Source of the DNA: a virus
Virus record (IMG/VR): IMGVR_UViG_3300047550_001665
Span: 1-23,277 of that record
DNA length: 23,277 nucleotides
Strand: one strand, 5' to 3'
The notes beneath the pieces are model-generated. The model was given only the letters and a program-made list of their open reading frames with translations. It was not told the DNA's origin and searched no databases. Position numbers and translations under genes: made by a program. Positions within the stretch are counted from its first letter, which is position 1. Each line of letters begins with the position of its first letter. Below are positions 18-4,233 of this stretch, in pieces.

Positions 18-1322
18 CTAGGCAAGGACAACGTTCTGCCGAATCTTGTCCACCTGCTCCGTCTTGGCGCCTTTGAGAACGCGCATCTTGTACGCGGTCT
101 CAACGTCCACGCCCGCCTTGATGAGTTTCGCGCCGTCAATCGTGGCACGCGGCGACACGATGACGCGCAAGCCGTACTTCGCGACGTTCTCGCGAGACTG
201 GCGAACCGCCGCCAGCCACTGCTTGGCGACCGCGGCATCCAGCCCGACCGAATCCAGCATTGACTGCTCCAGCGCCTCGTCTAGGTCAATCGCGACCATC
301 GCGAACCTGTCCAGAAACGCGGCGTCAATCGGGTTGCGTCCCACGTACTCCGCGGTCGCGCCGTTGCCGAACGTGTTAGCGGACGCCATGCCCACGAAAT
401 TTTCGTGACGCTTGACCATGCCATCGGGGAACGCCATCACGCCATTCGCAAGCGCGCTATTGAGCACGTTGAGAACGTTCGGGTTGCCGTTGTCCACCTC
501 ATCCAGTAGGAACACGCCGCCGTTCTCAAACACGTCACGGAACGGTGTGCGTACCGTCTTGCCGTGAGCGTCAACGAACCCGACCAGCGATGCCTCGGAC
601 GTTTGCGCGGTCACGCTCTTGGATGCGAACGTGACGCCTAACGCTTTGGCGACGTTCTCCGCGATGGTGGACTTGCCAGTGCCAGCCGCTCCCACAAGGT
701 ACACGTGGACACCAGCCGAAACAGCCTTGAGAACATTGGCGAATTCGGCATGTTGACGCCCCGCCACCTGCACTACCTGCTTGGACGGTAGCGTGATGTG
801 TGTTACCTGCGGTCGCATGTCCGCGATTGCCGCCTGCATCTCGCCGCGAATCGCATCCAGTGACGCCGCCATCTCATCACGCAACACTCCAGCGGTCGGC
901 GCGACCAATTCCATAATCATCTCGCCAACCTCACGCTTGTCCACGCCAACCTTGGCGCCTGCCAGCACCTCGGCGGCGGCACGACGTGCCACCTCCGCAA
1001 TGACCGCATCCACACCAGTCGCATTATGCGTAGGTGCCGCGGGCACCGTCACCGTCGGCGGCGTGTATGACGCCAGCCCCGCCGTTTCGTACGTCAACGT
1101 CTTGGCGCCGCTACGAATCGCCGCCAACATCGCATCGGTGCCGAAATGCATCGGCGGACGCCCCACAAATTGGATGCCCAAATACTTGGACAACGCGATG
1201 AGTGTGGTCTTGCGGGCACTCACCAGCGGGATTTCCCGCGGGGTCGTACCGTTGTATGTGTACGTGATGCGCTCACGTTGCGGGTCATAACCGATGACCG
1301 TCGGTGCTTTATTCGCGGACAT
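18..1322 (-). CDS. CobS/MoxR-like AAA+ ATPase
   Basis: This 434-aa protein carries an AAA+ module of the AAA_5 (MoxR/CobS) type in its second half. Walker A is GAAGTGKST at about 211-219. Walker B is VFLLDEVD at about 270-277. Sensor 1 is in ASANT at about 313-317, with a candidate arginine finger in DRF at 338-340 and a sensor-2-like SPRAT at 390-394. The first 200 residues show no recognised enzyme motif and include an Ala-rich stretch that is probably helical. I chose the ATG at 1322 because AGGAG lies six bases upstream; a start at 1382 adds 20 Arg/Lys-rich residues without such a site. ATPases of this class usually remodel a partner, often a VWA-domain protein, but none is visible here. 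A possible next start lies at the extreme left edge. The class call is firm; the substrate is unknown. Confidence 0.88.
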   Translation of the reverse strand: MSANKAPTVIGYDPQRERITYTYNGTTPREIPLVSARKTTLIALSKYLGIQFVGRPPMHFGTDAMLAAIRSGAKTLTYETAGLASYTPPTVTVPAAPTHNATGVDAVIAEVARRAAAEVLAGAKVGVDKREVGEMIMELVAPTAGVLRDEMAASLDAIRGEMQAAIADMRPQVTHITLPSKQVVQVAGRQHAEFANVLKAVSAGVHVYLVGAAGTGKSTIAENVAKALGVTFASKSVTAQTSEASLVGFVDAHGKTVRTPFRDVFENGGVFLLDEVDNGNPNVLNVLNSALANGVMAFPDGMVKRHENFVGMASANTFGNGATAEYVGRNPIDAAFLDRFAMVAIDLDEALEQSMLDSVGLDAAVAKQWLAAVRQSRENVAKYGLRVIVSPRATIDGAKLIKAGVDVETAYKMRVLKGAKTEQVDKIRQNVVLA

Positions 1323-1373
1323 TGCCGCTCCTTTCCGCTTTCGCGGGTGTGTGTTTCCGATGGGACTCATCAG

Positions 1374-1419
1374 CGCCAGCATTTACTGGCGGACACGCGG
1401 CGGGGGAAACGCCGCGTGT
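1374..1419 (-). promoter_or_regulatory. tandem hairpins in leader of AAA+ ATPase gene
   Basis: Two perfect inverted repeats, one base apart, fill the gap between the 72-aa gene and the ATPase start. The first on the minus strand has 10-bp arms ACACGCGGCG and CGCCGCGTGT (1393-1419, 7-nt loop). The second has arms CGCCAG and CTGGCG (1374-1391, 6-nt loop). No U-run follows either, so a standard terminator is unlikely. An RNA-processing, attenuation or mRNA-stability element is possible. Function is inferred. Confidence 0.6.
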
Positions 1420-1425
1420 TTCGTC

Positions 1426-1644
1426 CTACGCTTGCGCCTTGGCGATTCGCGCCGCCGCGGCGAATTCCGAACGATTCAGGTTATACGCCATAAAGAACGT
1501 GTCGCGGTCAAACCTCGCATTATCCGCGGCGCACACCTTGGCGACCTCCACGACCGCCTCCGCAATTATGCGCCCGTGCTCGTCGCTACGCGCTCCAACC
1601 AATGCAAGCGCCTTGACCAGCGCCCGATAATCTTTCCGTGTCAT
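1426..1644 (-). CDS. small hypothetical phage protein (72 aa)
   Basis: The product starts MTRKDYRALVKALALVG and is 72 residues long. It is predicted mostly helical, with alternating charged and Ala-rich segments, and has no catalytic motif or membrane segment. I chose the ATG at 1644 over the longer frame from 1755 because AAAGG lies eight bases upstream and the extra N-terminal residues read like untranslated DNA. The ribosome-binding site is bracketed by two ACACACAC runs. Short proteins beginning MTRKDY are common among phage early genes; I recall the style but cannot name a family. It is co-oriented with the ATPase, and a strong hairpin begins seven bases after its stop. Confidence 0.7.
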   Translation of the reverse strand: MTRKDYRALVKALALVGARSDEHGRIIAEAVVEVAKVCAADNARFDRDTFFMAYNLNRSEFAAAARIAKAQA

Positions 1645-2226
1645 GTGTGTGTACCTTTCGTGTGTGTATCTGAACTCGTCAGCACGGACATTTATCCGTG
1701 GACGCGGCACGTGTTCAACGTGTCGCGTTTCGTTCTCGCAACCCTTGGCGCCCACTACGTATGCAACCGTAGCCGTTCACGGTACTCGGCGCGCCACGTG
1801 TTCCGTGGCGTGTCTTGTTCCGCATCCCGCGAACGTCATACACCCTAGCAGCGTGCCGCATAATGCCGCGGCACACCCAACGAATACGTCCCCGCTCGCC
1901 GCAATTCCGCGCCGTTGTCACTCCCACATTGCAGGGCTGACCATACTCCCGACGCGGCGCAACGATGGCGCCGTATCCGCTCCCATTACGAGCCGTGCAC
2001 GATTCAGTGCCCTCACGGTACTCGCTCAGTCCCACGGTGTGACCGTATCGCGACCTAAGCCGCTTGAGACTGCCAGCGCTTCACGGGGCGTCATGTCCCC
2101 TGATTGCTTCACGCCAACAACGAATCGGGGCGTAGTCGCCACCGTTGCGTTTGCCACCGCCGCTATTTGGGCGATTCCCGTGATTCGCCGCCATGGTGAT
2201 GCGACGACGAATTGACGATGCCAAAC
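1645..2226. other. GC-rich stretch without a convincing gene
   Basis: About 580 bases lie between the leftward promoters and the first confident leftward gene. Frames are open on both strands, but their products are Arg/Cys/His-rich and lack good ribosome-binding sites. On the minus strand one frame is open from 2256 to 1777 except for two TGA codons (2028-2026 and 1920-1918), so a decayed or very small gene cannot be excluded. Perfect hairpins occur at 1792-1810 (arms CGCCACG/CGTGGCG) and 1853-1874 (arms GTGCCGC/GCGGCAC). The stretch could be a long structured leader or a non-coding RNA. Confidence 0.5.
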
Positions 2227-2256
2227 ACGGTAAGCGACCCGAAACCCACTTGTCAA
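2227..2256 (-). promoter_or_regulatory. leftward sigma70-like promoter A
   Basis: On the minus strand a perfect -35 hexamer TTGACA (2256-2251) is followed after 18 bases by TACCGT (2232-2227), a TAnnnT-type -10. An A/T-rich block lies directly upstream, where an UP element would be. The same -35 and its upstream flank recur in promoter B. The promoter would drive transcription toward the 72-aa gene and the ATPase. It is predicted from sequence only. Confidence 0.5.
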
Positions 2257-2269
2257 CTACCCCCCAAAA

Positions 2270-2299
2270 TTGGAAATATATATAAATATATATTTCCAA
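2270..2299. repeat. 30-bp A/T-rich perfect inverted repeat
   Basis: The arms TTGGAAATATATA and TATATATTTCCAA (13 bp each, perfect) flank a 4-base centre. A second perfect palindrome, AAAAATATTTTT, abuts it at 2298-2309. Together they make about 40 nearly pure A/T bases within very GC-rich DNA, directly upstream of promoter A. Read on the minus strand the hairpin is followed by TTTT, so it could also act as a weak terminator for transcripts from promoter B. A DNA-unwinding or protein-binding site is equally possible. Confidence 0.75.
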
Positions 2300-2384
2300 A
2301 AATATTTTTTCGGCAATCACATACCCAAGCGCACACCCAGACGCCCGTTTGCGCTCCCGCGCGTCGCATGGGGGCGCGGCGCGC

Positions 2385-2413
2385 GTGGTACCACATTCGG
2401 CGCCGCTTGTCAA
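2385..2413 (-). promoter_or_regulatory. leftward sigma70-like promoter B
   Basis: On the minus strand TTGACA (2413-2408) is followed after 17 bases by TACCAC (2390-2385), a weaker -10. The -10 lies in a perfect 10-bp palindrome GTGGTACCAC (2385-2394), which could be an operator. The upstream flank matches that of promoter A. It is predicted from sequence only. Confidence 0.42.
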
Positions 2414-2427
2414 GTACCCCGAAAATT

Positions 2428-2717
2428 TTGGGGGTGGATTATGGGCGGATTATGGCGGCGAAAATGGGGTCGCGTGACGCACACACGTACGCCGCACCAG
2501 CATGGGTGGGGGTGCCTAGGGGGGCGCCACCCCCGCATCCGTGTAATATAGTTATAGCCTAGGGCGAGGGCGTGTCGTTTTGGGGTCAGGCATACCTTGT
2601 TGTGACGGTGGGCACACCTCCGTACGGGGTTTTGTTTGGGTCCCCCACCTGTTTGTCCGTGCTGTGATGGTGTGGGTTTACGATACGAATAGTTGCTACT
2701 GGTGGTAACTATTGGTA
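2428..2717. other. gene-free stretch between promoter B and tRNA
   Basis: I see no credible gene. It contains a G/C hairpin at 2508-2534 (arms GGGGGTG/CACCCCC, with a CCTAGG palindrome in the loop), an A/T-rich patch near 2545-2560, and an imperfect hairpin at 2689-2712 (arms ATAGTTGC/GTAACTAT) just beyond the tRNA 3' end. The last could help tRNA 3' processing or act as a weak terminator for it. Confidence 0.5.
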
Positions 2718-2793
2718 TGGCTGGCTCGCTTGGGCTTGAACCAAGAACCTACGGATTAACAGTCCGTTGCACTGCCAGTTGTGCTACGAGCCA
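2718..2793 (-). tRNA. tRNA-Asn (anticodon GTT), CCA encoded
   Basis: A full cloverleaf can be drawn on the minus strand. The acceptor is TGGCTCG with CGAGCCA, the D stem GCAC/GTGC, the anticodon stem ACGGA/TCCGT with loop CTGTTAA (anticodon GTT) and the T stem CTTGG/CCAAG with loop TTCAAGC. The discriminator is G, followed by a genome-encoded CCA. A first base U and discriminator G are typical of bacterial tRNA-Asn. It is 76 bases including CCA. It stands between a terminator-like hairpin and the gene-poor region, so it may have its own promoter or be cut from a longer leftward transcript. Confidence 0.95.
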
Positions 2794-2820: not shown

Positions 2821-3096
2821 TTACCATTTGACTTTGTTAGCCCACCATGCTGCGCTGATTGGTCCACGCGCAATGTTCTTTGCGTGACGTGACTTGAACC
2901 GTTTACGCTGTCCAGCGTTCTGATTCGTTTTCGCACCTTGCTCACCGAACCTGATGGTTTTTACTTTGCCGTCAACTTTAGCGACGACAATGTGCGACTT
3001 GGTGGGATGGTTCGGTGTACGCTTCGGCTTATTGTAGCCTGAGACTCCAGCCCGCTTTAATCGTGGGTCCCTAGTGGTTTTTCTTGCTTTAGCCAT
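2821..3096 (-). CDS. small basic conserved phage protein (91 aa)
   Basis: The product has a Lys/Arg-rich N-terminal tail (MAKARKTTRDPRLKRAG), then a compact region with IVVAKVDGKVKTIRFGEQGA at about 36-55, then RKRFKSRHAKNI and a C-terminal AAWWANKVKW. I recognise the RKRFKSRHAKNI...WWANKVKW ending from many uncharacterised phage proteins but cannot assign a function. Its strong positive charge suggests binding to nucleic acid or to an acidic capsid surface; that is inference. It has no Cys and no membrane segment. The start is coupled to the upstream gene by a TAATG overlap (stop TAA, start ATG). It is last in a five-gene leftward chain. Confidence 0.82.
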   Translation of the reverse strand: MAKARKTTRDPRLKRAGVSGYNKPKRTPNHPTKSHIVVAKVDGKVKTIRFGEQGAKTNQNAGQRKRFKSRHAKNIARGPISAAWWANKVKW

Positions 3097-4130: not shown

Positions 4131-4233
4131 TGGGGGTTTCCCTCACCCCCCTATATCCCCCCTCTCCCGTTCCCTAACGGACAGTAGTATCGCAACCACT
4201 CTCGGTGGTCGGGAACAGCACGGACGGTGAGTG
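4131..4233. promoter_or_regulatory. divergent intergenic control region
   Basis: This gap separates the leftward small-gene chain from the rightward late region, so both promoters should lie in or near it. It holds a C-rich tract (4141-4168) and two perfect short hairpins, 4167-4180 (CCGTT/AACGG) and 4195-4209 (ACCAC/GTGGT). It also contains GGGAACA at 4211-4217 and, on the minus strand, TTAGGGAAC within 4171-4179. I see no clean -35/-10 pair in either direction. Confidence 0.45.

Follow-up and report, generated by a model that had tools for sequence, protein, structure and literature searches.

In this study, we found that a noncoding region in the genome of an uncultured podovirus-like phage very probably holds the promoter from which a unit running leftward would be transcribed, with a structured noncoding RNA as its first product. 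The window, by which we mean the whole stretch of DNA that was analysed, is a genome fragment of 23,277 bases. The sequence-only reading of this DNA had described a pair of leftward promoters around an A/T palindrome and had missed the RNA, which lies in the leftward noncoding stretch downstream of both TTGACA boxes. We propose that the RNA polymerase of the host, carrying the main sigma factor, would start near 2220, from the repeat copy named A, and move leftward. The transcript would adopt a compact fold of several helices, for which conservation extends over 2221-1939 at least, and would most likely continue as the 5′ leader of a small gene and an AAA ATPase gene. Upstream, a control block would be made up of box B, the CCATAATC repeats and the inverted repeat that separates B from A; B itself probably serves either as an additional start under regulation or as a site for a regulator. 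The features of the region are as follows.

18..1382, minus strand: AAA ATPase gene (PHROG 249), downstream of the RNA and in the same direction
1426..1644, minus strand: small first downstream gene, likely start ATG 1644-1642 (MTRKDY...), as in the relative L137
1645..1938, minus strand: remainder of the leader, or perhaps the 3′ portion of the RNA; conservation is lower, with several hairpins common to the relative L335
1939..2221, minus strand: conserved 5′ portion of the structured noncoding RNA, with a predicted 5′ end
2020..2174, minus strand: RNA core, 155 nt, whose 8 helices comprise 49 base pairs; 24 of these pairs show two-sided changes among the 7 distinct sequences
2227..2256, minus strand: putative promoter A, -35 TTGACA 2256-2251, 18-nt spacer, -10 TACCGT 2232-2227
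2270..2299: A/T-rich inverted repeat between B and A, 14-bp arms and 2-nt centre
2298..2309: 12-bp palindrome AAAAATATTTTT, adjoining the inverted repeat
2385..2413, minus strand: box B, TTGACA 2413-2408, 17-nt spacer, TACCAC 2390-2385 inside GTGGTACCAC
2437-2444 and 2448-2455, minus strand: two CCATAATC repeats (GATTATGG on the plus strand), upstream of box B
2718..2793, minus strand: tRNA-Asn (GTT), upstream of the RNA on the same strand

Gene setting and relatives

The closest named phage by portal protein was an uncultured podovirus (Manatee Spring), with 44% identity. The noncoding stretch that holds the RNA lies between a small leftward gene and the tRNA-Asn gene. Small leftward genes continue upstream of the tRNA-Asn up to 3942, and rightward genes for packaging and head (terminase small and large subunits, portal, major head protein) begin at 4231. 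One of the small leftward genes, 2821-3096 (PHROG 7595), has at least 600 close relatives in viral contigs. The longest frame of the first downstream gene runs from 1755 to 1426. In the relative L137, the protein begins with MTRKDY, which corresponds to ATG 1644 of the window. Thus, the GTG at 1755 is probably the wrong start and ATG 1644 the real one. A tblastn search with gene 1426-1755 as the query returned zero relatives, and a piece of it matched L137, L307, L315 and L335.

To collect relatives, the terminase, the AAA protein and short DNA patterns of the leader were used as queries, and all three kinds of query yielded contigs with the same gene order. This order (gene 2821-3096, promoter block, RNA, AAA gene) is common to the relatives. 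The leader DNA itself matched L230 (E 1.7e-41) and L231 (3e-36), and further leader matches were found in L306, L307, L315, L324 (the contig also labelled G026), L334 and L335. The nearest relative is L335, with 76% identity in the AAA protein and 90% in the terminase. The RNA occurs in several contigs of 36-39 kb. Terminase relatives were sought in 84,980 bacterial and archaeal genomes with zero matches, and a pattern search with the tRNA-Asn gave matches only in Colwellia and one Bacteroidetes MAG.

A structured RNA conserved by compensatory changes

The RNA core recurs in nine phage loci, which represent seven distinct sequences differing by 1-3 nt in core length. Six of these loci align almost without gaps over 155 columns, and 21 of the 49 pairs have two-sided changes in this alignment, in which 98.8% of the cells are paired, a level that 0 of 500 shuffles reached and that compares with 33-48% in slid controls. 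When all members were included, two-sided changes were found in 24 of the 49 pairs with 98.5% of cells paired, compared with 13.6 ± 2.1 such pairs in the shuffles and at most 4 in the slid controls. The core model was built from the six loci only. Two members left out of the building were nevertheless recovered, one in another contig at 147.5 bits and the other in L335, which had been located by a short pattern, at 158.8 bits. The consensus fold of the whole conserved 5′ part has 75 pairs, of which 29 have two-sided changes, and the added helices are less well kept than those of the core.

The strand of the RNA is also clear. The sense (minus) strand folds at -66.5 kcal/mol compared with -54.0 kcal/mol for the antisense strand and -27.6 ± 3.6 kcal/mol for column shuffles. 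In addition, the leader of the window (1645-2221) folds with a z of -3.3. The core does not code for protein, since stops occur in all three sense frames of the window, L230 and L324, and no frame is open in all members. It could be argued that this is an ordinary promoter with an untranslated leader, whose structure is incidental to the GC-rich sequence. GC-rich DNA does fold readily on either strand, as the antisense energy indicates. However, the covariation in nearly half of the core pairs, far beyond both kinds of control, speaks strongly against this explanation, and we consider it hardly credible.

We did not identify a terminator ahead of the first gene at which a separate RNA could stop. 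The RNA stands before the AAA gene, and together these observations fit a long structured leader. The core model gave zero matches in L129, L228, L137 and other more distant phages, whose leader RNA would seem to be either too diverged or different. The leaders of L129, L142, L143, L003 and L225, a more distant group without core match, repeatedly contain hairpins with loops such as UAACGGGAUGUU and UCACGGGAUGAG.

Copies A and B

The sequence-only reading had pointed out two 25-base copies on the minus strand, 157 bases apart. Both were located at that place, and the ungapped 25-mers are identical at 20 of 25 positions. The spacing given for their boxes, a TTGACA with a TACCnn box 17-18 bases on, was also correct (18 nt in A, 17 nt in B), and the -10 of copy B, TACCAC, does lie within GTGGTACCAC. 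When the 2 kb around them were Markov-shuffled, 0.7% of the shuffles had an equally good repeat within 200 bases. Exact matches of the 15-mer CTTGTCAASTACCCC occur in the window only at copies A and B, and the same 15-mer searched alone in the collection gave 79 scattered matches. The reading had further suggested looking for the repeats in relatives. The place of A and the boxes of B are conserved there, but not the long likeness of A and B, which is lost in copy A of L335. Thus, the likeness is not the conserved part.

A probable promoter at the 5′ end of the RNA

The boxes of copy A, TTGACA and a TAnnnT-like hexamer, show the spacing of a sigma70-type promoter (16-19 nt), and the transcription start predicted from the sequence is near 2220. 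In about 16 relatives, the leader is immediately preceded by a similar pair of boxes: one like TTGACA/TTGCAA and, after a spacer of 16-19 nt, one like TAnnnT (or CAnnAT). For instance, the site reads TTGACT-18-TACCTT in L230, TTGCAA-18-TATAGT in L307, TTGACA-17-TATTGT in L003 and TTGACA-18-TACGGT in L335. These boxes were positioned by eye. In all relatives read, A-type boxes stand directly before the leader start, a few bases from the 5′ end of the RNA. Thus, copy A is most likely the sigma70-type promoter of the RNA. Of the promoter pair originally suggested, the A half is therefore supported, whereas B has the spacing of a promoter only in the window, L335 and L237.

A generic sigma70 scan of the window reported neither A nor B, because TACCGT fits TATAAT at only 3 of 6 positions. 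With a matrix made from the A sites of 14 relatives, leaving the window out, the A site of the window ranked 4th among all positions on both strands. However, this score alone is not rare, since a shuffled window would be expected to contain about 3 sites of this kind. Thus, the position adjoining the RNA is a stronger argument than the score. Candidate promoter A resembles known sigma70-type phage promoters in its TTGACA-type -35, its 16-19 nt spacer, its TAnnnT-like -10 and its place at the head of a leftward unit. It differs from them in its weak -10 box and in the first product, which would be a noncoding RNA.

The upstream block

The 30-bp perfect A/T inverted repeat described earlier is present at 2270-2299, but it consists of two perfect 14-bp arms around 2 unpaired bases and includes GG/CC. 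It is the sole site of the window with perfect arms of at least 12 and a gap of at most 4. The adjoining 12-bp palindrome was located as described, and the A/T island is real (12% GC over 2270-2311). In L335, there is a similar A/T run at the place of the palindrome, and the 30-bp symmetry is kept with two-sided changes on both arms, although the alternating AT of that repeat makes this weaker evidence than mixed sequence would give. The other relatives have no such dyad in this slot; A/T tracts or different inverted repeats, built around GCATTATGC, stand there instead. An A/T tract as a universal upstream element was rejected, since it is marked in only about half of the relatives.

The sequence GCATTATGC is found upstream of promoter A in L306, L307, L315, L230, L324, L129, L142 and L003 as a recurrent loop of inverted repeats, and the arms around these loops vary among phages yet remain complementary. 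The window has one copy of GCATTATGC, within the leader (1853-1874).

Further upstream, the TTGACA of B does not vary among the members that carry the RNA core, and CCATAATC-like repeats occur at the same place in L230, L231, L334 and L335. L335 has an identical copy of a 35-base block that lies just upstream of B in the window, at about 2540-2575 (minus strand CACGCCCTCGCCCTAGGCTATAACTATATTACACG), and L137 retains part of it.

What this block does can be explained in several ways. A and B may be twin promoters, both of sigma70 type and serving one unit, in which case the B transcript would be about 160 nt longer and would carry the A/T hairpin in its 5′ part. We give this nearly an even chance. 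The TAnCAC-like box lies 17 nt from the invariant TTGACA in the window and L335 (TTGACA-17-TACCAC) and in L237 (TTGACA-17-TATCGG), and the hairpin pairing between B and A is kept in L335 and replaced elsewhere by inverted repeats with changed arms, as judged by eye. However, in L230, L231, L306, L307, L315 and L324 the two B boxes are 7 nt apart. This is too close for a sigma70 promoter built from this pair and speaks against a plain sigma70 promoter in those six phages. With the matrix of A sites, moreover, B ranked 83rd, as chance predicts. The distance between the boxes shifts by exactly 10 bp, about one helical turn, while the boxes themselves are conserved. This would suit an operator at which a phage or host regulator binds both B boxes and the dyad on one helix face and controls promoter A. 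The identity of A and B at most positions of the 25-mer in the window and the dyad in the window and L335, with other inverted repeats there in several relatives, also point that way. Against it, the extended likeness is gone from copy A of L335, and no regulator gene was identified in the window. We regard an operator as possible, with somewhat less than an even chance. On this evidence, box B may be a regulatory site or a second, lineage-specific promoter.

The repeated sites and the A/T tract could also belong to a replication origin, with initiator sites next to an unwinding element. The low GC content of the island would fit, and short CCATAATC repeats and A/T tracts do recur in several relatives, although the marked tract is missing in about half of them. 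The sequence-only reading had expected that a GC skew switch near 2.3 kb would favor an origin. In the window, however, the switch was found at about 4.2-4.5 kb, where leftward and rightward genes diverge ahead of the small terminase gene, and a displacement of about 2 kb was seen there as well as in two relatives of 37-39 kb (switch at 8 kb and RNA at 10.0 kb in G027; 13 kb and 10.9 kb in G029). Thus, the skew position removes support for an origin. In addition, the TTGACA of A fits a promoter at the RNA 5′ end. We therefore consider an origin improbable, and the promoter of a leftward RNA-first unit remains the preferred reading of the region.

Comparison with known RNAs

A search of Rfam 15 with the window, L129, L137, L118, L230 and L231 found no family that fits the RNA, which by this search is a member of a family not in Rfam 15. 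No real match to the core RNA was found in named phages. The model of PAGEV RNA (RF03037) aligned weakly over its full length to 1890-2230, and its 5′ end fell close to where the RNA is predicted to start. However, it scored 16.1 bits against a curated cut-off of 61.1. The same model was unmatched in L230 and L231, which have the same RNA, and brought no relative over the cut-off. Furthermore, sub-cut-off signal appeared in 11 of 14 control genomes. Identity with PAGEV was therefore rejected as below the cut-off and unspecific. A literature search found no paper on PAGEV RNA or on the present RNA.

Phages and prophages encode the large structured RNAs GOLLD and ROOL, often in the vicinity of tRNA genes (PMC12286853). 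The present RNA is like them in being phage-encoded, in its length of hundreds of nucleotides, in its many covarying helices and in the same-strand tRNA gene nearby. Unlike them, it would be a leader before an AAA gene and has no Rfam match, and the GOLLD and ROOL models gave zero matches in the window and relatives even at permissive settings. By these likenesses, GOLLD and ROOL are the nearest known kind, and the Rfam search shows no relation. Few large structured phage RNAs are known, and GOLLD and ROOL are still without a known function. The family added here has strong covariation and a likely promoter, stands at a fixed place ahead of an AAA ATPase gene and, in relatives, has a tRNA-like end, and it offers a concrete RNA to seek in infection transcriptomes.

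The tRNA-like domain stands at the leader end in relatives and consists of a 7-bp acceptor-like stem, mismatched at position 3, and a T-arm of 5 bp whose loop is TGCRATT. Domains of this type are found in tmRNA and in tRNA-like processing signals such as mascRNA. The relatives share with these the acceptor-like stem and T-arm. They differ in having no canonical CCA end, and the leader of the window has no copy that a descriptor search could recognise. ARAGORN found no tmRNA. The tRNA-like end in relatives suggests cutting by tRNA-processing enzymes. Tentatively, the RNA might belong to a new class of phage RNAs with an independent role. It would be made from a promoter of its own at the start of the leftward unit, and in the wider family it would be cut at the tRNA-like 3′ domain by host tRNA-processing enzymes. 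Such a class would be akin to GOLLD and ROOL in kind and unrelated to them in sequence. We consider this proposal rather doubtful as a whole.

The tRNA-like leader end was located at 5495-5618 in L230 and at 5083-5201 in L231, and it is also seen in L307 and L324, in sense orientation. Another compact tRNA-like copy follows after about 400-800 nt in L228, L229, L230, L231 and L237.
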